From positions 1 through 64,000 of the forward strand of contig JAAZMZ010000011.1 in the NCBI GenBank assembly GCA_012798535.1: a stretch of DNA of 64,000 nucleotides, given 5' to 3'. The position numbers were made by a program, and so were the translations under genes. This stretch comes from Leptolinea sp. (GTDB lineage: Bacteria > Chloroflexota > Anaerolineae > Anaerolineales > Anaerolineaceae). Shown here piece after piece: positions 19,129-45,632 of the stretch. The notes beneath the pieces were generated by a model that had not been told where the DNA came from, made no database searches, and saw only the letters and a program-made list of their open reading frames with translations. The first letter of the stretch is position 1. The number at the start of each line of letters is the position of its first letter.

Positions 19129-19144
19129 TCCGGTCTTGACCGGA
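19129..19144. promoter_or_regulatory. Palindrome over the -35 box
   Basis: A perfect 7-base inverted repeat with a 2-base centre (TCCGGTC-TT-GACCGGA). Its right arm and centre contain the -35 hexamer of the promoter at 19136-19164. No T-run follows, so it is not a terminator. It is a candidate operator, possibly for the winged-helix regulator encoded just downstream. Confidence 0.5.
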
Positions 19145-19164
19145 CAGGTCATGTGTCTTATAAT
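19136..19164 (+). promoter_or_regulatory. Strong sigma70-type promoter for the regulator/export operon
   Basis: TTGACC at 19136-19141 and a perfect TATAAT at 19159-19164 are separated by exactly 17 bases. Transcription would start near 19171, giving a leader of about 20 bases with AGGA at 19180-19183 before ATG 19191. This is the best promoter in the window. From here onward the genes run to 39989 with only small gaps, so it may drive the regulator, epimerase, exporter and first NulO module. Confidence 0.8.
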
Positions 19165-19178
19165 TCAACGATTGAATT
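19162..19178. promoter_or_regulatory. Palindrome over the -10 box and start site
   Basis: A perfect 7-base inverted repeat with a 3-base centre (AATTCAA-CGA-TTGAATT) covers the end of the -10 hexamer and the predicted transcription start. A dimeric regulator bound here would block RNA polymerase. It is unrelated in sequence to the palindrome over the -35 box, so two different proteins, or two modes of one, are possible. Confidence 0.5.
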
Positions 19179-19190
19179 TAGGACAGCGCT

Positions 19191-19736
19191 ATGGGACTTA
19201 TCCCCGATCCCGCTAGAGACCTGATACTTTTAGAACATATAGAACAGAATCCGGATGCCACTCAAGCGAGTCTGGCAGCACAGGTGGGTGTGGCTGTCGG
19301 AACTGTAAACTGGCATCTCAAACGTCTGGTGGCAAAGGGCTATGTAAAAGTCCGCCACGCGGAACGGCGCAAACTTCGATATATTATCACCCCGGATGGG
19401 CTGGCCCTGCGGGCTAACTTGACCCTCGACTATATTCAGAACTCCTTCAAACTGTATCGCCTGGTACGGGAACGAATGGGAGTGACTCTGCAAGAGGTGC
19501 GCAAAGCCGGATATGACCGGGTACTGCTTGCGGGTGAAGGTGATGTAGCAGACGTATGCCGTCTCACCTGTGCGGAAAACGGAATCCAGATATTGGAAAG
19601 TGGACAGATCCCGCGCCTGACCATCAATGGATTAAAGATTTTCATTGAATGGCCAGATGGTAAAGATCCCCTTTCGGTAGAAGAACAGAACATAAATCCA
19701 TATGAAAACCTGGAAGGAGACAGTCAAAAACAATGA
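19191..19736 (+). CDS. Winged-helix transcriptional regulator
   Basis: A 181-residue protein. Residues about 10-75 form a MarR/ArsR-like winged helix: '[23 protein letters not shown]' supplies the helix-turn-helix and '[13 protein letters not shown]' the wing. The rest is a predicted alpha/beta domain containing '[17 protein letters not shown]', which looks like a ligand-sensing domain. It most resembles the EPS-associated MarR-type regulators found at the head of polysaccharide operons. It lies directly behind a promoter with two palindromes and overlaps the next gene by ATGA, so autoregulation and control of the exporter operon are likely. Ligand unknown. Confidence 0.8.
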
Positions 19737-20698
19737 CATCGAGAGAAAGCCAGGATTTTTGGAAATCGAAAAAAGTGTGTGTGACGGGCGGTGCCGGTTT
19801 CCTGGGCTCGTTCATCACCGAGAAATTAAAAGAACGTGGTGCAAAAGAGATCTTCATCCCCACCATTGAGGAATATGACCTGGTGAACGGCGATGACGTC
19901 CGCAAGGTTCTGGATAGAAGCAAACCGGATATCGTCATTCACCTGGCCGCGCAGGTCGGGGGGATCGGCGCCAACCGTGAACATCCAGCCGATTTTGTTT
20001 ACAGCAACGCCATGATGGGATTGCAGCTCATCCACGAAGCGTGGAAACGAAACATAGAGAAATTTGTCTGCCTGGGAACCATCTGTGCCTACCCCAAGTT
20101 CACGCCGGTTCCTTTCAAAGAAGAGAACCTATGGGATGGCTATCCCGAAGAAACCAACGCTCCATACGGATTGGCAAAAAAGCTTCTTCTGGTGCAATCG
20201 CAGGCATACCGTCAGCAGTATGGTTTCAATTGCATCTACCTGCTGCCGGTTAATCTCTATGGTCCACGTGACAACTTCAGACTGGACAGCTCGCATGTCA
20301 TCCCGGCTCTCATCCGCAAATGCGTGGAAGCCTGCGAAAAAGGAGCGGAATCCATTGAGGTCTGGGGCGACGGATCACCCACCCGTGAATTCCTGTACGT
20401 GGAAGACGCGGCGGAAGGAATCCTGATGGCTGCCGAAAAATACAATGGTCCGGAACCGGTCAACCTGGGTTCTGGCAACGAGATCGCCATCAAAGATCTG
20501 GTGAACCTGATCGCCCGATTGACCGGATTCGACGGCAAGATCATCTGGGATACTAGCAAACCCAACGGCCAACCACGCCGTGGATTGGATACCACCCGTG
20601 CCTGGGAGTACTTCGGGTTTCGCGCTCAGATGACCTTCGAAGAAGGATTGCGCCGGACGATTGACTGGTACCGCGCCAATAAAAACTCGATCAAATAA
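19733..20698 (+). CDS. fcl: GDP-L-fucose synthase-like epimerase/reductase
   Basis: A 321-residue extended SDR, the same length as E. coli GDP-L-fucose synthase. TGGAGFLGS binds NADP, 'QVGGIGAN' is the hallmark of this enzyme group, the catalytic Y145 and K149 lie in 'PYGLAKK', and 'NLYGPRDNF' and 'SSHVIPAL' supply the Cys118/His188 acid-base positions. The usual catalytic serine is replaced by threonine (GTICAYP, T116), common in relatives and probably active. No GDP-mannose 4,6-dehydratase is in the window, so its substrate would have to come from elsewhere, or it acts on another 4-keto-6-deoxy GDP-sugar. Confidence 0.75.
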
Positions 20699-20714
20699 GA
20701 AATTGGGAACGTCA

Positions 20715-21575
20715 ATGACTGTTGAGAGCCATGCGCTGGTAAAAACCGAAGCTCCCCGCACTGTGGTCATCAAACCCGGAAGCGGATGGGCGGCGCTTAA
20801 TTTGAAAGACCTCTGGGTGTACCGCGAGCTGGTCTATTTCATGACCTGGCGCAACCTGAAGGTGCGTTACAAGCAAACGGTGTTGGGAGCTGCCTGGGCT
20901 ATATTGCAGCCGTTCCTCACCATGGTCGTCTTCAGCATATTTTTTGGCAACCTGGCAAAGGTTCCGTCAGATGGTGTGCCCTACCCGATCTTCTCTTATA
21001 CCGCGCTGCTGCCGTGGACGTTATTCTCCAAGGCGCTTACCGATGCCGCACATTCCCTGGTGCAAAACAGCCACATGATCACCAAGGTGTATTTTCCGCG
21101 CCTGATCCTGCCTCTGGCTGCCATTCTATCCGGTCTGGTGGATTTCGCCCTGGCTTTCATTGTTCTATTCGGCATGATGCTGTTTTACGGGATGATGCCC
21201 ACCAGTGCCGTGTGGAGCCTGATTCTGTTCATTCTGCTTGCCATGGTCACCGCTCTGGGGGTGGGCATCTGGCTTTCTGCCATGAATGTGCTCTACCGGG
21301 ATATCGGCTATGTGCTGCCATTCCTCACCCAGTTCTGGATGACCCTGACCCCGATCGCCTATCCGGCCAGCCTTCTGCCAGAAAAGTGGCGGTTGATCTA
21401 CGCCCTCAATCCGATGACTGGTGTGGTGGAAGGTTTCCGCTGGGCTCTGCTGGGCTCAAGCGCCAGCGCGCCGACCGGTATGCTGGCCGTCTCCACTGGT
21501 ATCTCGATTTTCCTGCTGATCACCGGATTGTATTACTTCCGCAGAATGGAACGGCGTTTCGCCGATATGGTGTAA
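20715..21575 (+). CDS. wzm: ABC-2 polysaccharide exporter, permease (Wzm)
   Basis: A permease of about 286 residues with six hydrophobic segments and the ABC-2 start 'LVYFMTWRNLKVRYKQTVLGAAWAI', typical of Wzm/KpsM/TagG-type exporters that move lipid-linked polysaccharide across the membrane. The start is ATG 20715 with GGGAA upstream, 16 bases after the epimerase stop; an in-frame extension to 20661 would run into the preceding gene and adds no conserved residues. Its ATPase follows three bases later. Presence of this pair means the glycan uses the ABC-dependent route, and no Wzx flippase was seen. Confidence 0.9.
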   Translation: MTVESHALVKTEAPRTVVIKPGSGWAALNLKDLWVYRELVYFMTWRNLKVRYKQTVLGAAWAILQPFLTMVVFSIFFGNLAKVPSDGVPYPIFSYTALLPWTLFSKALTDAAHSLVQNSHMITKVYFPRLILPLAAILSGLVDFALAFIVLFGMMLFYGMMPTSAVWSLILFILLAMVTALGVGIWLSAMNVLYRDIGYVLPFLTQFWMTLTPIAYPASLLPEKWRLIYALNPMTGVVEGFRWALLGSSASAPTGMLAVSTGISIFLLITGLYYFRRMERRFADMV

Positions 21576-21578
21576 CGA

Positions 21579-22844
<1,266 letters not shown>

Positions 22845-22846
22845 AC

Positions 22847-24478
22847 ATGACAGCGGCGGCAGCAGCAGGAAAAGACGTTGTAAAAGAAATCCTCGGGCAA
22901 ATCCCGTTCACTGTGGAGCTGTACTGGCTCCTTCGGCAGCGCGGTAAGGCCATAAACAGCCATTTCAGCCTGCGCCATCTTCAGGATGCTTTACCTGATC
23001 TGGTCAAAGACGCGGTTGAATTGAAGAACAAGGTGCCGGAAGGTAAAAAGATTTTCATTTTTGCCACCCTGCATTACTGGATCGAGCACGCCGCCCTGAC
23101 AGGTATCGCGCTTGCGGCGCAGGGTCATTCTGTAACACTGGGATATCTGGCGCAATCTGACTGGCAGAAACCGATCACCCGTTTCGATTTACGCCGGCAG
23201 GATTTATATGCCCGCAAGGTGTTGAGCCTGGCTGAGCCTGTGATGAAATCCATCTCATTTGTCAGCGGCAAAATTCCTTTTGCACCGGTTTCTGATGAGA
23301 TTGCCCGCCTGGTGCAACAGGTCAGCGAATTCGATACCCAGTATTCCCTCCAGGTAGAAGAGATCGACCACAAAAACGAGGTTTATAAATTGCGCCAAGA
23401 GCGCAATGAAGAGACAGCGCTGGCGGCTTATTCCTACCTCAAAGAGAATCGTCCGGATGTGGTCATTGTTCCCAACGGTACCATTCAGGAGCTGGGTGTG
23501 GTTTACCGGGTGGCCCGCCTGTTGAAGATCCCCGTGGTAACCTATGAATTCGGTGACCAACGGCAGCGTATCTGGATTGCGCAGAATAATGAAGTGATGC
23601 GGCAGGATACAGACGCCCTGTGGCGCGCCCGTCAGAATTCACCGTTGAAAGACGAACAACTGGAACGCCTGCGGTCGATGTTGATGGCCCGTCAGCATGG
23701 TGCCATGTGGGAAAACTTTGCCCGCCAGTGGCAGGGGACTCCCAGCCAGGGCGGGGAGAAAGCCCGTAAAGCCCTGGGATTGGATGAAAGGCCGGTGGTC
23801 CTGCTGGCCACCAATGTGCTTGGCGACAGCCTGACTTTGGGCCGGCATTTGTTCAGCAAAACCATGGGAGAATGGATCAGCCGCACTGTACAGTATTTCG
23901 CCGGGCGGCCGGATGTGCAGCTGGTGATCCGCGTACATCCAGGAGAAGTATTAACCCATGGCACATCAATGGTCAAAGTGGTGCATGAGGTCTTCCCCAA
24001 ACTGCCGGAACATATCCGTCTAATCGGTCCCATGGAGAAGGTGAATACCTACGATTTGATCGAAGTGGCGGATGTCGGCTTGGTGTACACCACCACGGTC
24101 GGGCTCGAGATGGCCATGGCCGGTGTGCCGGTGGTGGTGGCCGCTCAGACGCATTATCGGAATCGCGGCTTCACGTTTGACCCTGAATCCTGGGTGACGT
24201 ATTACAAGACCCTGGGCCAGATCTTGCAGAATCCAACCGCTCACCGATTGAACCGCCAGCAGGTGGAAAAAGCCTGGCAGTATGCCTACCGCTGGTTCTT
24301 TGAATTTCCGCTGCCATATCCCTGGCATCTGGTGCGAATGTGGGATGACTATAAAGCTCATCCGCTTGCCAGCGTACTTAACTCTCATGATAACAACGAC
24401 TTTGAAAAGACCTTTCGCTACCTGGCCGGGGAACCGATCAACTGGCTGCCTGTGGATGCCGTACAGGAGAACCCGTGA
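22847..24478 (+). CDS. Capsule-type GT-B glycosyltransferase
   Basis: A 543-residue protein without membrane segments. The C-terminal half reads like a GT-B donor domain: 'RPDVQLVIRVHPGE', 'VADVGLVYTTTVGLEMAMAGVPVVV', the pattern of the capsule-synthesis (KpsC/KpsS-like, Pfam Capsule_synth) group and of CDP-glycerol transferases. The N-terminal half has 'IFATLHYWIEHAALTGIALA', an acceptor-side Rossmann domain. It lies two bases behind the Wzt gene and overlaps the next methyltransferase by GTGA. A homologue with the same layout is at 47504-49120. It may add the linker or terminal residue; sugar unknown. Confidence 0.65.
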   Translation: MTAAAAAGKDVVKEILGQIPFTVELYWLLRQRGKAINSHFSLRHLQDALPDLVKDAVELKNKVPEGKKIFIFATLHYWIEHAALTGIALAAQGHSVTLGYLAQSDWQKPITRFDLRRQDLYARKVLSLAEPVMKSISFVSGKIPFAPVSDEIARLVQQVSEFDTQYSLQVEEIDHKNEVYKLRQERNEETALAAYSYLKENRPDVVIVPNGTIQELGVVYRVARLLKIPVVTYEFGDQRQRIWIAQNNEVMRQDTDALWRARQNSPLKDEQLERLRSMLMARQHGAMWENFARQWQGTPSQGGEKARKALGLDERPVVLLATNVLGDSLTLGRHLFSKTMGEWISRTVQYFAGRPDVQLVIRVHPGEVLTHGTSMVKVVHEVFPKLPEHIRLIGPMEKVNTYDLIEVADVGLVYTTTVGLEMAMAGVPVVVAAQTHYRNRGFTFDPESWVTYYKTLGQILQNPTAHRLNRQQVEKAWQYAYRWFFEFPLPYPWHLVRMWDDYKAHPLASVLNSHDNNDFEKTFRYLAGEPINWLPVDAVQENP

Positions 24479-26377: not shown

Positions 26378-27291
26378 AACGCTTGCTGGTTACCGGAGCG
26401 AGTGGACTGCTGGGAATTAACCTGGCTCTGCGTGAATTGGCGCACAGGGAAGTGACCGGCATCATAAATTCACACGCCCTATCAGGTATACCTTTCCCTG
26501 TTGAGGCTCTGGATTTGACACTCCCCGGCAGGATCGAACATGTACTTGCCGATAAAAAGCCGGATGTAGTGATCAATTGTGCCGCTCTGGCGAATATCGA
26601 TGACTGTGAAAAGGAGCCGGCGAAAGCCCTGCTGACCAACAGTACGATGCCTGGCTGGATGGCACAGGAATGCCACAAGAGGGGAATTCGACTGGTGCAT
26701 CTATCGACTGACGCGGTTTTCGACGGTTTACAGGGGGGGTACCGAGAAACGGATACGCCTCATCCGCTTTCGGTGTATGCGCAGACTAAGCTGGATGGCG
26801 AAAAAGCCGTTCTGGATGCCTGCCCGGATGCCGTAATTGCCCGGGTGAATTTTTACGGGTGGAGCCTCAGCGGAAAACGCAGCCTGGCCGAGTTCTTTTA
26901 TAACAACCTTTCTGCTGGAAAACAGGTTAATGGTTTCACCGATGTCCTTTTTTGCCCTCTATTTGTGGATCATCTCGCGGATGTGTTGATGCGCCTGGCT
27001 GACAGCGATCACAGCGGGCTTTTTCATGTGGTCAGCCCGGTAGCGCTGTCGAAATATGACTTTGGTTGCAGAATTGCCAGAGTATTTAAGCTGGATGACC
27101 GTCTGATCAAACCGGTTTCTGTCGAAGATGGCGGACTTCTTGCCCGGCGCTCGCCTAATCTAACTTTGAATACGGATAAATTGAGAAAAGCCCTGCAGTT
27201 GGTACTGCCCGGTGTCGATGAGGGCATTCAAGCTTTTGCCGGTCAACTGGCTAATGGCCATCCACAACGCATCCGTAAATTCCTTGTTTAG
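26374..27291 (+). CDS. RmlD-like NAD(P)-dependent sugar reductase
   Basis: A 305-residue extended SDR of the dTDP-4-dehydrorhamnose reductase type. GASGLLG at 8-14 binds the cofactor, S111-T-D supplies the catalytic serine/threonine, and Y135-x3-K139 the YxxxK pair. RmlD-family enzymes reduce the 4-keto group of a 6-deoxy nucleotide sugar. Directly coupled to the PseB-like dehydratase by ATGA, it would reduce the 4-keto product to a 4-hydroxy sugar, in place of the transamination used for pseudaminic acid. No RmlABC genes are nearby, so a rhamnose role is unlikely here. Substrate inferred. Confidence 0.8.
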   Translation: MKRLLVTGASGLLGINLALRELAHREVTGIINSHALSGIPFPVEALDLTLPGRIEHVLADKKPDVVINCAALANIDDCEKEPAKALLTNSTMPGWMAQECHKRGIRLVHLSTDAVFDGLQGGYRETDTPHPLSVYAQTKLDGEKAVLDACPDAVIARVNFYGWSLSGKRSLAEFFYNNLSAGKQVNGFTDVLFCPLFVDHLADVLMRLADSDHSGLFHVVSPVALSKYDFGCRIARVFKLDDRLIKPVSVEDGGLLARRSPNLTLNTDKLRKALQLVLPGVDEGIQAFAGQLANGHPQRIRKFLV

Positions 27292-27313
27292 CAATAATCC
27301 AGGAGGATGTTCT

Positions 27314-28384
27314 ATGGAAATCCAAATCGGAAATCATGTAATCGGAAACAACCGGCCTACCTATTTCATCGCCGATATCGCCGCCAATCATGATGGCAGT
27401 CTGGAGCGGGCAAAAATGCTCATTCGCCTGGCCAAAGAGGCCGGAGCGGATGCCGCGAAATTCCAAAATTTTCGCGCGCCGAAGATTGTTTCCGATTATG
27501 GATTCAGATCCATGGGAGGACAGGTTTCCCACCAGGCCAAATGGAAGAAATCTGTTTTTGAAGTGTACAATGACGCTTCGGTTCCATTCGAATGGACGCC
27601 TGAATTGAAAGCCGAGTGCGACCGGGTCGGGATCGATTATTTTTCTGCACCGTATGATTTCGAAGCCATAGACCATCTGGATCCATTTGTGCCGGCCTAC
27701 AAGATCGGCTCCGGCGATATCAACTGGCCGGAAGCTCTGGAACGCATTGCCCGCAAGAATAAACCGGTGCTGCTGGCTACAGGAGCTTCAGATATTGGCG
27801 ATGTGCAGCGGGCCGTGCGAATTCTGCTGGCGATTAACCCACGATTGGTGTTGATGCAATGCAACACGAATTACACGGCCAGCCTGGAGAATTTCAACCA
27901 CCTTCATCTGCGGGTTCTGACCACCTATCATAGTATGTTCCCCGACCTGATCCTTGGCCTATCTGATCACACGCCCGGACATGCTTCCATTCTGGGAGCG
28001 GTGGCACTCGGGGCGCGGGTGATCGAAAAGCATTTTACGGATAACAACCTGCGGGAAGGGCCGGATCATGCCTTTGCCATGAATCCGAAGAGCTGGGAGG
28101 AAATGGTAGTCAATACCCGCCAGCTTGAAAGAGCACTGGGGTCGGGTGACAAATTCGTTGCCGAAAATGAGAAACAGACTGTGTTATTACAACGCCGCTG
28201 CCTGAGAGCTGCCCGTGACCTGAAAGCCGGTGAGATCATTACCCGCGAAATGATCGACGTGCTTCGCCCGGCGGCTCCCGGAGCTATTCTGCCCTACGAA
28301 CTGGATGCCGTCATCGGGACAAAAGTGTTGAATACCCTGCCGGCCGGCAAGGAAATCTGTTGGACGGATCTGGGTAAGGCATAA
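27314..28384 (+). CDS. NeuB/PseI-family nonulosonate synthase with SAF domain
   Basis: A 356-residue synthase that would condense a 6-carbon 2-acetamido sugar with phosphoenolpyruvate to give a nine-carbon 2-keto-3-deoxy acid. The TIM-barrel signature is 'IADIAANHDGS...AAKFQ' (H-D in place of the commoner H-N), with 'IGSGDINW', 'SDHTPGH' and 'GARVIEKHFT'. The last 65 residues ('RAARDLKAGEIIT') form the antifreeze-like SAF domain. A perfect AGGAGG at 27301-27306 precedes ATG 27314. It follows PseB and the reductase. Neu, Leg and Pse synthases cannot be told apart reliably by eye, so I give no symbol. Confidence 0.85.
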   Translation: MEIQIGNHVIGNNRPTYFIADIAANHDGSLERAKMLIRLAKEAGADAAKFQNFRAPKIVSDYGFRSMGGQVSHQAKWKKSVFEVYNDASVPFEWTPELKAECDRVGIDYFSAPYDFEAIDHLDPFVPAYKIGSGDINWPEALERIARKNKPVLLATGASDIGDVQRAVRILLAINPRLVLMQCNTNYTASLENFNHLHLRVLTTYHSMFPDLILGLSDHTPGHASILGAVALGARVIEKHFTDNNLREGPDHAFAMNPKSWEEMVVNTRQLERALGSGDKFVAENEKQTVLLQRRCLRAARDLKAGEIITREMIDVLRPAAPGAILPYELDAVIGTKVLNTLPAGKEICWTDLGKA

Positions 28385-34151: not shown

Positions 34152-35612
34152 ATGCCGGATAAGAAGATCGTCTTTATCAGCGCCGATCACGGCCTGGCCA
34201 TCGTCTATTTTTTACAGAGCGATGTGGTTCCGACACTTCTGGAAAAGGGTGTGGAAGTAGTGATCCTAACCGATGACGGGTTAAAAGAACAAATCGAAAA
34301 ACGTTTTGGACGGCCGGGGCTGCATATTGAAGGACTGCGCATGAAACAGTGCCGCAAGTACAGTGACACGGTTGATCCATCCGCCCAGTGGTGGTTGAAT
34401 TTTCTGCGTCGGGTAGGCGCCTCCAATCGAATCAATGTGGAAGCATTGACCAGCCATGTTCGCCAGGTGGATGTGGAAGCCTCGAGGCGCCGCCGAACCA
34501 TCATGCCGTTCATGAAAGCGGCTGTTGGTCTGATGCGACGCTCTAAAGTTGCCCGCAGGTGGGTGTATCGCGCGCAGTTAAAATACTCGCCTGAGCTGTA
34601 TTCCGACCTTTTCGAAAAGTACAAACCCGATCTGGTGATCGCCAGCACACCGGGATGGCGGCTGGACCGCTACCTGCTGAGACAGGCGGCCCGGCAGGGA
34701 ATCAAAACCGCAGCCGTGGTGGTGGGCTGGGATAATCCTTCCAGTTACAGTCTACCCGGTGCGCCGGTGGATTGGATCACCTGCTGGTCGGAAATCCAGA
34801 AGCAGGAACTTGTGGAAGGCGATGATTGGCTGCCTGAACGTGTGAATATCGGCGGCATTCCTTCCTACGATGGATATTTCCACAAACAATGGTTGATGCC
34901 CCGCGAGGAATATTTCAAGCTTCACAACCTTGATCCAGACCGCAAACTTCTTTCGTATGCCAGCAGCTTCATCACCTTTTCACCGAACATCCAGAATATC
35001 GAAGCTCTAGCCCGCCTGGTGTCCGAAGATCAACTGGCCGAACCGGCGCAATTGCTTATCCGGTTGCATCCCAACCACTTCATGAGTGAACCATTATTCG
35101 CAGCGGAACGTGAACGGGTACGGGCTATGACCAGAGAGCTTCCGCATGTCCATCTGGTTGAACCTGTTCCACTGGGCGGTGAGCTGGGGTATTATTCCGG
35201 AGAAGACATGCCGGAAAAAACTTCCATGATGGCCTATTCAGATGTGTTTCTGACCGTCTATTCCACCATGGTCGTTGAGGAAGCCATCCACGGTAAACCA
35301 ATCGTGGCGGTGTGTATCGATGCGCCGGGCGGGTGGAATCAGCCCGGACGGTTTTCTCTGCCTCTCTCACAGATCGGGGAGTGGCCGACTCACCAACGGT
35401 TCCGCAAAGCCGGCGCCGGCCGGGTGGCTTTGAATGCGGCAGAATTGCGGGATGTGATCAATACCTATCTGCATAATCCTCAGACCGACCAATCACAGCG
35501 TGAACAATTCATCCGCGATGAGGTGACGTTCACCGACGGCACTGCAGGCCGGAGAACCGGGGAGTTTCTGGCATCCCTGCTGGAAAAGACCAAACCGGAG
35601 GACTTCCGATGA
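34152..35612 (+). CDS. GT-B-like transferase (CDP-glycerol transferase/capsule type)
   Basis: A 486-residue soluble protein with two Rossmann-like halves. The first begins 'KIVFISADHGLAIVYFL', and the second carries 'AQLLIRLHPNHFM' and 'YSDVFLTVYSTMVVEEAIHGKPIVAV', the donor-domain pattern shared by CDP-glycerol glycerophosphotransferases, capsule transferases and UDP-GlcNAc 2-epimerase-fold proteins. It has no membrane segment and lacks the short length and motifs of PseG hydrolases. It overlaps the downstream oxidoreductase by ATGA. Function as a glycosyl- or polyol-phosphate transferase is inferred. Confidence 0.6.
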   Translation: MPDKKIVFISADHGLAIVYFLQSDVVPTLLEKGVEVVILTDDGLKEQIEKRFGRPGLHIEGLRMKQCRKYSDTVDPSAQWWLNFLRRVGASNRINVEALTSHVRQVDVEASRRRRTIMPFMKAAVGLMRRSKVARRWVYRAQLKYSPELYSDLFEKYKPDLVIASTPGWRLDRYLLRQAARQGIKTAAVVVGWDNPSSYSLPGAPVDWITCWSEIQKQELVEGDDWLPERVNIGGIPSYDGYFHKQWLMPREEYFKLHNLDPDRKLLSYASSFITFSPNIQNIEALARLVSEDQLAEPAQLLIRLHPNHFMSEPLFAAERERVRAMTRELPHVHLVEPVPLGGELGYYSGEDMPEKTSMMAYSDVFLTVYSTMVVEEAIHGKPIVAVCIDAPGGWNQPGRFSLPLSQIGEWPTHQRFRKAGAGRVALNAAELRDVINTYLHNPQTDQSQREQFIRDEVTFTDGTAGRRTGEFLASLLEKTKPEDFR

Positions 35613-43522: not shown

Positions 43523-44748
43523 AGAAACCCGAAGTCCTGGCCATAATTCCGGCACGGGGCGGTTCCAAAGGCATCCCGCGCAAGAATATCCGCGAATTTG
43601 CAGGATATCCTTTGATCGCCTACAGTATTGCAGCCGGGTTGCAGGCCGAAACCGTGACACGCACCATTGTCTCGACGGATGATGAGGAGATCGCGGCGGT
43701 CGCGCGGCAGTTTGGAGCGGAGACGCCTTTCTTGCGGCCGGCGGATCTGGCTTCGGACCAGGCGTTGGACCTGCCGGTTTTCCAGCATGCCCTCCACTGG
43801 TTGCACGAGCATGAAAACTACAGCCCGGATGTGGTTGTCCAATTGCGACCTACTTCACCGGTGCGGCCTGTAGATTGCGTGGACCGGGCTGTCGAAATGT
43901 TGCTGGCAAACCCGGACGCGGATTGTGTGCGCGGTGTGGTTCCGGCTGGACAAAATCCGTATAAAATGTGGCGGCGGGACGAAAACAGTGGGCAGATCTC
44001 TCCGCTGCTGCATGTACCGGGCATTCCCGAACCGTTCAACGCGCCCCGCCAGATTTTACCGCCGGTCTACTGGCAAACTGGTCATATTGATGCCATCCGC
44101 CCGGAGGCCATTTTAAAAAAGAATTCTATGACCGGCGACCGCATTCTGGGTATGGTCATCGATCCTCAGTACACCATCGATATTGATACACCCAAAGATT
44201 GGGGCAGGTCAGAGTGGCTGGTGTGGCACGGCGGTCTATCATATGTCGATCCGGCGAAACGAGCCCGGCGGCCGCTGCCCGCGAAGATCGATCTGATGGT
44301 CTTCGATTTCGATGGTGTGATCACGGATAACCGGGTGTGGGTGGATGAGAACGGTTTTGAACGGGTGGCTGCCAACCGCAGCGACAGTCTGGGTGTACGC
44401 CTGCTTTCCGAAGCCGGCCTGGAGATGATGGTACTCTCCATGGAAGTGAATAAAGTGGTTGCCGCACGGGCGAAAAAAATGGGTATCGCCGCCCTGCATG
44501 GTATAAAAGATAAGGCTACTACTCTGCGGAATCTTTTGGATGAGCGTCAGATTCCGTCAGAGAACGTGATCTATGTAGGCAATGATACAAATGACCTGGA
44601 ATGTTTCAAGGTGGTGGGTTACGCGGTCGCCGTTGGAGATGCCCAACCAGAAGTAAAACGGGCGGCTGATCTGATTTTAACCAATGATGGTGGTCATGGG
44701 GCGGTTCGCGAAATTTGCGATCTGATCTTACAGACAGGAAGATTATGA
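43516..44748 (+). CDS. neuA: CMP-nonulosonate synthetase fused to HAD phosphatase
   Basis: A 410-residue fusion. Residues 1 to about 235 are a NeuA-type cytidylyltransferase: PARGGSKGIPRKN at 12-24, 'VVQLRPTSPVRP' and 'YTIDIDTPKDW'. Residues from about 260 are a KdsC-like HAD domain with intact catalytic motifs: D264-F-D266-GV, the Ser in 'VLSMEVN', the Lys in 'RAKKMG', and GND at 355-357 with D360. Animal CMP-sialate synthetase and some bacterial KDN systems have the same order. An active phosphatase suggests a 9-phosphate intermediate. The start ATG 43516 overlaps the SDR gene; an upstream in-frame TTG is less likely. Confidence 0.85.
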   Translation: MVKKPEVLAIIPARGGSKGIPRKNIREFAGYPLIAYSIAAGLQAETVTRTIVSTDDEEIAAVARQFGAETPFLRPADLASDQALDLPVFQHALHWLHEHENYSPDVVVQLRPTSPVRPVDCVDRAVEMLLANPDADCVRGVVPAGQNPYKMWRRDENSGQISPLLHVPGIPEPFNAPRQILPPVYWQTGHIDAIRPEAILKKNSMTGDRILGMVIDPQYTIDIDTPKDWGRSEWLVWHGGLSYVDPAKRARRPLPAKIDLMVFDFDGVITDNRVWVDENGFERVAANRSDSLGVRLLSEAGLEMMVLSMEVNKVVAARAKKMGIAALHGIKDKATTLRNLLDERQIPSENVIYVGNDTNDLECFKVVGYAVAVGDAQPEVKRAADLILTNDGGHGAVREICDLILQTGRL

Positions 44749-45632
44749 GGTTGAAAATGGCACGAGAAATTAAGATCGGCAATAAATGGATTGGTGATGG
44801 ACATCCAACATACGTAGTGGCGGAGATTGGCATCAATCATAACGGCGACCTGGATAACGCAAAAAAGATGATTGACGCCGCAAAACACGCTGGTGTTGAT
44901 GCGATCAAGCTGCAGAAACGTACACCGGAGATTTGCGTTCCGGATAAACAGAAGAATCAAATGCGCGAAACCCCGTGGGGATATATCACATACCTGGAAT
45001 ATCGCAATAAGGTGGAATTCGGGGAGACAGAATATCGTGAAATTGACCGGTATTGCAAAAAGGTGGGGATGGACTGGTTTGCTTCTGTCTGGGATGAACC
45101 TTCCGTGGATTTCATGGAAACTTTCAATCCGATCTGTTACAAGATCCCTTCCGCCTCATTGACAGATTCGGGTTTGCTCAAGAAAATTCGTGCCACCGGC
45201 AGGCCGGCAATCCTTTCCACAGGCATGTCGACCATGGAGGAGATCCATAAAGCCGTCAAGGTGATCGGATTAGAGAAACTTATCATCACTCATGCCACAA
45301 GCACCTACCCTTGCGAACCCGAAGAGTTGAACCTGCGCATGATCGAAACCCTGCGTAAAACGTTTCCCTGTCCGATCGGCTATTCTGGACATGAAGTGGG
45401 TTTGATCCCCTCGGTGGTGGCTGCTTCGATGGGCGCCTGCCTGGTGGAGCGCCACATCACGCTGGATCGAGCCATGTGGGGCGGCGATCAGGCGGCATCT
45501 GTGGAGCCCAGCGGTTTCGAAAGATTGGTAAAATATATTCGCGTTGCCGAGCAGGCGCTGGGCGATGGCGTCAAGAAAGTTTACGATAGTGAACTTCCAT
45601 CCTTGAAAAAACTCCGCCGGGTACAGGAATAA
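44745..45632 (+). CDS. neuB: NeuB-family synthase lacking the SAF domain
   Basis: A synthase of about 295 residues that condenses a sugar with phosphoenolpyruvate. 'VAEIGINHNGDLDNAK' and 'VDAIKLQKRTPEICVP' replace the commoner KFQ, and 'KIPSASLTD', 'STGMSTMEEI', 'GYSGHEVG' and 'ERHITLDRAMWGGDQAASVEP' complete the barrel. It stops where other NeuB proteins begin the SAF domain. This short form tends to sit beside NeuA-HAD fusions, as here. ATG 44745 overlaps the fusion gene by four bases; ATG 44757 is the alternative. A phosphorylated substrate is inferred from the neighbour. Confidence 0.85.
   Translation: MRLKMAREIKIGNKWIGDGHPTYVVAEIGINHNGDLDNAKKMIDAAKHAGVDAIKLQKRTPEICVPDKQKNQMRETPWGYITYLEYRNKVEFGETEYREIDRYCKKVGMDWFASVWDEPSVDFMETFNPICYKIPSASLTDSGLLKKIRATGRPAILSTGMSTMEEIHKAVKVIGLEKLIITHATSTYPCEPEELNLRMIETLRKTFPCPIGYSGHEVGLIPSVVAASMGACLVERHITLDRAMWGGDQAASVEPSGFERLVKYIRVAEQALGDGVKKVYDSELPSLKKLRRVQE

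Follow-up and report, generated by a model that had tools for sequence, protein, structure and literature searches.

A conserved palindrome at the -10 element is the probable operator of a winged-helix regulator of GDP-deoxyhexose and glycan-export genes in Anaerolineae

Transcription factors of the MarR type often recognise palindromic promoter sites, frequently control their own genes and act mostly as repressors (PMC5487221). The closest named family to the N-terminal half of the regulator described here is MarR_EPS (NCBIfam TIGR04176, E 3.8e-17), which by its name is likewise tied to exopolysaccharide genes, and all 33 sampled members match it. The regulator scores 62.3 bits against this equivalog, short of its curated threshold of 88 bits. 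The model is 105 positions long and does not include the C-terminal alpha/beta domain of the regulator. Anaerolineae abound in sludge and sediment but are poorly represented in culture. No glycan regulator for this class was found described in the open-access literature, nor was any description of this regulator or its operator.

The window, the 64-kb stretch of Leptolinea sp. DNA analysed here, encodes the 181-residue regulator on the forward strand (19191..19736), with a winged helix-turn-helix (HTH) at about residues 7–66, a long helix at 68–105 and an alpha/beta domain at 110–153. It is 82–83% identical to its counterpart in Leptolinea tardivitalis and 76% identical to that of Leptolinea sp. 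HRD-7, the two nearest named genomes, which places the window in this genus of the family Anaerolineaceae. HTH_24 is its best match in a Pfam scan (51.2 bits), and cut-offs within the MarR superfamily are passed for MarR_2 (30 bits, cut-off 27) and MarR (25.5 bits, cut-off 24.6). The predicted structure (mean pLDDT 87) is a MarR/PadR-like winged HTH with no helix before it and the 68–105 helix behind it; as modeled, this long helix appears suited to dimerisation.

Four genes follow on the same strand. The first (19733..20698), whose ATG at 19733 overlaps the regulator stop codon, encodes a GDP-L-fucose-synthase-like epimerase/reductase (fcl-like); it resembles GDP-fucose synthase most (PDB E 5e-72) and matches the GDP-fucose synthase NCBIfam profile with an E value of 1.9e-91, yet under the cut-off. 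Next come a Wzm-like ABC-2 type polysaccharide exporter permease (20661..21575), a Wzt-like exporter ATPase with a weak Wzt_C-like C-terminal domain (21579..22844) and a glycosyltransferase-like member of the same conserved operon (22847..24478). A preliminary description had proposed that the first gene is a winged-helix regulator tied to the exporter operon, and this is borne out. Farther along the window, in one glycan cluster, the translations of ORFs 27212–28384 and 44715–45632 look by eye like NeuB-type sialic/legionaminic-acid synthases. Ahead of the latter ORF is one that looks CMP-sugar-transferase-like and is fused to a phosphatase-like domain.

The promoter ahead of the regulator, TTGACC-17-TATAAT, has 11 of 12 consensus bases in its -35 (19136..19141) and -10 (19159..19164) hexamers with a 17-nt spacer, and is the sole promoter-like site with at most one mismatch in the whole window. 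The hexamers and the repeats around them are given on the forward strand. Palindrome 1 (TCCGGTC-TT-GACCGGA, 19129..19144) is a perfect 7+2+7 repeat over the -35. Palindrome 2 (AATTCAA-CGA-TTGAATT, 19162..19178) is a perfect 7+3+7 repeat and a probable class-wide operator; it takes in the end of the -10 (its last 3 nt) as well as position 19171, near which transcription is expected to start, and its core, ATTCARYNRYTGAAT (19163–19177), overlaps both of these elements. Re-reading of the sequence places the promoter and both palindromes exactly where the preliminary description had put them. A third, weak inverted repeat (TGACC-GGACA-GGTCA, 19137..19151) is absent from two congeners and is probably due to chance. 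Measured against a first-order Markov model, perfect inverted repeats (arms of at least 7, loops of 0–8) number 47 in the window, with ~42 expected, so the symmetry count is at chance level and neither palindrome is remarkable on chance grounds. Coverage of both hexamers of one promoter is rarer, with one case seen and ~0.15 expected per strand. Because palindrome counts do not reveal a functional palindrome, orthologous promoters were compared; it is conservation, not symmetry, that tells which palindrome matters.

This comparison singles out palindrome 2. The sequence TATAATTCA-N5-TGAAT is perfect (14/14) upstream of 102 of 114 distinct orthologous regulators and 13/14 in three more; a control scan 1.2 kb farther upstream finds 6 to 10 of the 14 positions, save for one full match. 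The orthologous promoters share the consensus cTTGacc-(16/17)-gggTTATAATTCARYNRYTGAATwTTGga, in which the TATAAT is near-invariant and cTTGacc is present in most, and bases outside the promoter and operator hold almost no information across the 114 sequences. The first N of the N5 is a purine in 103/105 sites and the fifth a pyrimidine in 105/105, which makes the operator a degenerate palindrome of 15 bp. It is kept in 20 of 20 loci outside this order but within Anaerolineae, in one of them with a mismatch in the arms. Seven of these 20 loci (L272, L277, L280, L283, L285, L286 and L287) carry tandem, overlapping operators 14 bp apart, an arrangement that suggests two dimers side by side.

The distribution of the motif follows that of the regulator, whose gene 77 of the 101 relatives possess; in a sample of 298 genomes from the class, 39 have it. 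Among the 101 relatives, an exact 22-base motif occurs at 65 sites in 56 genomes, with none for a reversed-pattern control, and the regulator gene lies directly downstream of 55 of the 65 sites. Of the 77 genomes that carry the regulator, 56 have the exact motif, compared with 0 of the 24 that lack it (Fisher p 3.6e-11, a guide only since the genomes share kinship). The exact form is missing from 21 of the 77 regulator genomes, including the window genome, where the site has one mismatch to the 22-base pattern, in the 3' flank. A strict scan of 301 Chloroflexota genomes returns 18 with a match, all within Anaerolineales. Palindrome 2 is thus very probably a deeply conserved operator with the regulator as its partner; the co-occurrence itself shows linkage and does not identify the regulator as the binding protein. 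Because palindrome 2 and the regulator gene go together so closely, we infer the autoregulation that had been suggested earlier.

Palindrome 1 has a different history. Its arms are 7 bp long in the window genome, 6 in L. tardivitalis and 4 in Leptolinea sp. HRD-7, and 3 bp or fewer in all orthologues beyond the genus. The preliminary description had envisaged a dual-operator switch. On such a reading, palindrome 1 would serve another regulator or a second dimer, with the -35 and -10 controlled separately. The perfect repeat in the window genome and the 6-bp arms in L. tardivitalis speak for this idea, as does the identity of 14–15 of the 16 palindrome 1 positions among the three Leptolinea genomes, where the adjoining spacer of the window genome matches the other two at only 7 of 14. 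However, seven of those 16 positions belong to the family-wide -35 cTTGacc, the arms shrink within the genus and are lost outside it, and the palindrome 2 half-site is absent from palindrome 1. As a repeated operator, palindrome 1 also fails: loose matches in the window number 9 with 3.8 expected, but all others carry three mismatches, and of the better genome matches the three inspected are all inside genes. Separate control of the two hexamers is therefore improbable. Palindrome 1 is a local feature of Leptolinea, as judged by these alignments, and may still have a genus-specific role; two operators and a second regulator find no support beyond one genus. The preliminary description had counted a lack of the palindromes in orthologous promoters towards refutation; palindrome 2 withstands this check, and palindrome 1 fails it outside Leptolinea.

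The operon and its regulon can be read from the same loci. The order regulator, fcl, wzm and wzt is retained in most loci with room to see it. The fcl gene is directly adjacent to the regulator in 46 of 78, and many others hold one intervening epimerase-like gene; a reading of this gene as gmd proved wrong, and it is another epimerase-like SDR. Second copies of the operator were inspected at 23 sites, and 19 lie just upstream of gmd, encoding GDP-mannose 4,6-dehydratase (L161, L162, L163, L165, L167, L168, L302–L307, L309, L311, L313 and L315–L318). Most are 15 to 29 nt ahead of the gmd start, and the TATAAT of the operator again forms the -10. The remaining sites precede a GT2 glycosyltransferase, a transferase similar to the one encoded in the window at 34152, a membrane protein and one unclear ORF. 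The product of Gmd, GDP-4-keto-6-deoxymannose, is the substrate of GDP-fucose synthase. A pattern search of the window genome finds the core once, and the 64-kb window holds no second core site with at most one mismatch, which rules out a window-wide regulon. The gmd gene of this genome, on another contig, has no exact operator core nearby in the whole-genome search, so the regulon here may consist of one operon only. A switch for the whole surface glycan, as first proposed, is plausible, but what the loci indicate is narrower: the GDP-6-deoxyhexose branch, with the fcl-like gene and in other species gmd, and the Wzm/Wzt exporter.

We consider it likely that palindrome 2 is the single operator of an autorepressing winged-helix regulator acting on its own GDP-deoxyhexose/ABC-exporter operon. 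A regulator dimer would bind ATTCARYNRYTGAAT, whose center at 19170 is close to the expected transcription start (7 nt past the -10). Since binding there should exclude RNA polymerase, repression, including autorepression, is the most likely outcome, and the bound dimer would shut off the regulator gene and, co-transcribed with it, the fcl-like gene, wzm and wzt. The same operator on the gmd promoter in related species would extend the regulon to the GDP-6-deoxyhexose pathway and the glycan exporter. A metabolite may then free the operator, perhaps through the C-terminal alpha/beta domain. The sequences show that the operator is conserved, where it lies and that it is linked to the regulator and to gmd; from this we infer binding, repression over activation, and metabolite release.

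Activation from palindrome 2, for example by distortion of the promoter as with MerR-type proteins, would agree with the contact between operator and -10 seen in almost all promoters, and with the poor -35 of some operator promoters (L047, L137 and several gmd promoters). It is nonetheless doubtful, because the operator is centered near +1 and not between the hexamers, the spacers are an unstretched 16–17 nt, and characterised MarR proteins are mostly repressors (PMC5487221). A third reading, that the short inverted repeat near the start codon is an RNA hairpin or leader element and not a DNA operator, is dismissed as highly improbable on promoter geometry and absent covariation: the left arm lies within the -10, upstream of the expected start and so untranscribed, arm positions are invariant, an A-C mismatch interrupts the N1–N5 pair at 23 of 105 sites, and the same site occupies the same promoter position ahead of a different gene, gmd.

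Release of the repressing regulator could involve its C-terminal domain, predicted as a small beta-alpha-beta-beta-beta unit in which G, D, R, L, T and C residues are conserved. The C-terminal alpha/beta region, taken as residues 75–155 (window positions 19410–19655), bears a conserved motif. Foldseek comparison of the C-terminal domain with solved structures returns nothing at E below 0.001. The top VIA-align rows are THUMP domains, but their Z of 5.8–7.4 is often reached by unrelated folds, and this weak, non-significant resemblance supports no assignment. We would guess that the modeled domain is a candidate sensor of a pathway metabolite.

Paralogous regulators with 36–48% identity mostly have a variant operator at the same promoter position, roughly (T/C/G)AGAATTCA-N5-TGAATnCTc. 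The ATTCA-N5-TGAAT core is shared, and CTC flanks replace TTG. Downstream genes were read for five paralogues (L155, L156, L157, L158 and L171), and all five stand at the head of Wbp-like UDP-sugar operons with oxidoreductase, acyltransferase and aminotransferase genes, some with a UDP-GlcNAc 2-epimerase-like gene as well. Residues A35, G37, N40, W41 and R45 are invariant in the regulator and its paralogues, and the wing reads RRKLRY in one subfamily and RTRLKY in the other. A shared core with a differing flank would fit a recognition helix common to both and a wing that has diverged. It is possible, as a tentative extension, that Anaerolineae deploy class-wide, pathway-specific glycan repressors, with one paralogue per nucleotide-sugar operon (GDP-deoxyhexose export or UDP-diacetamido-sugar/Wbp-like), a common core with TTG or CTC flanks, and C-terminal sensing of a sugar nucleotide. 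The two subfamilies with their different flanks provide a natural system for the divergence of winged-helix specificity.

For surface-glycan synthesis in Anaerolineae, these results put forward a regulator, an operator and a regulon that can be tested, with an operator strict enough to call target promoters by sequence alone. Compared with known systems, the winged HTH aligns with MexR (Z 13.2, rmsd 1.8 over 85 residues), and FabT is among the top Foldseek matches. Unlike these MarR-type proteins, the regulator as modeled begins its winged HTH at residue 7 and so appears to lack the usual N-terminal dimerisation helix of MarR, and it carries an extra C-terminal domain with no clear fold match. 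Among Pfam matches up to E 0.1, none to PadR was listed. The predicted fold is nonetheless similar to that of PadR-type proteins (Z about 12–13), which also have a winged HTH at the N-terminus and a long helix after it, and it differs from them in the additional alpha/beta domain behind that helix.
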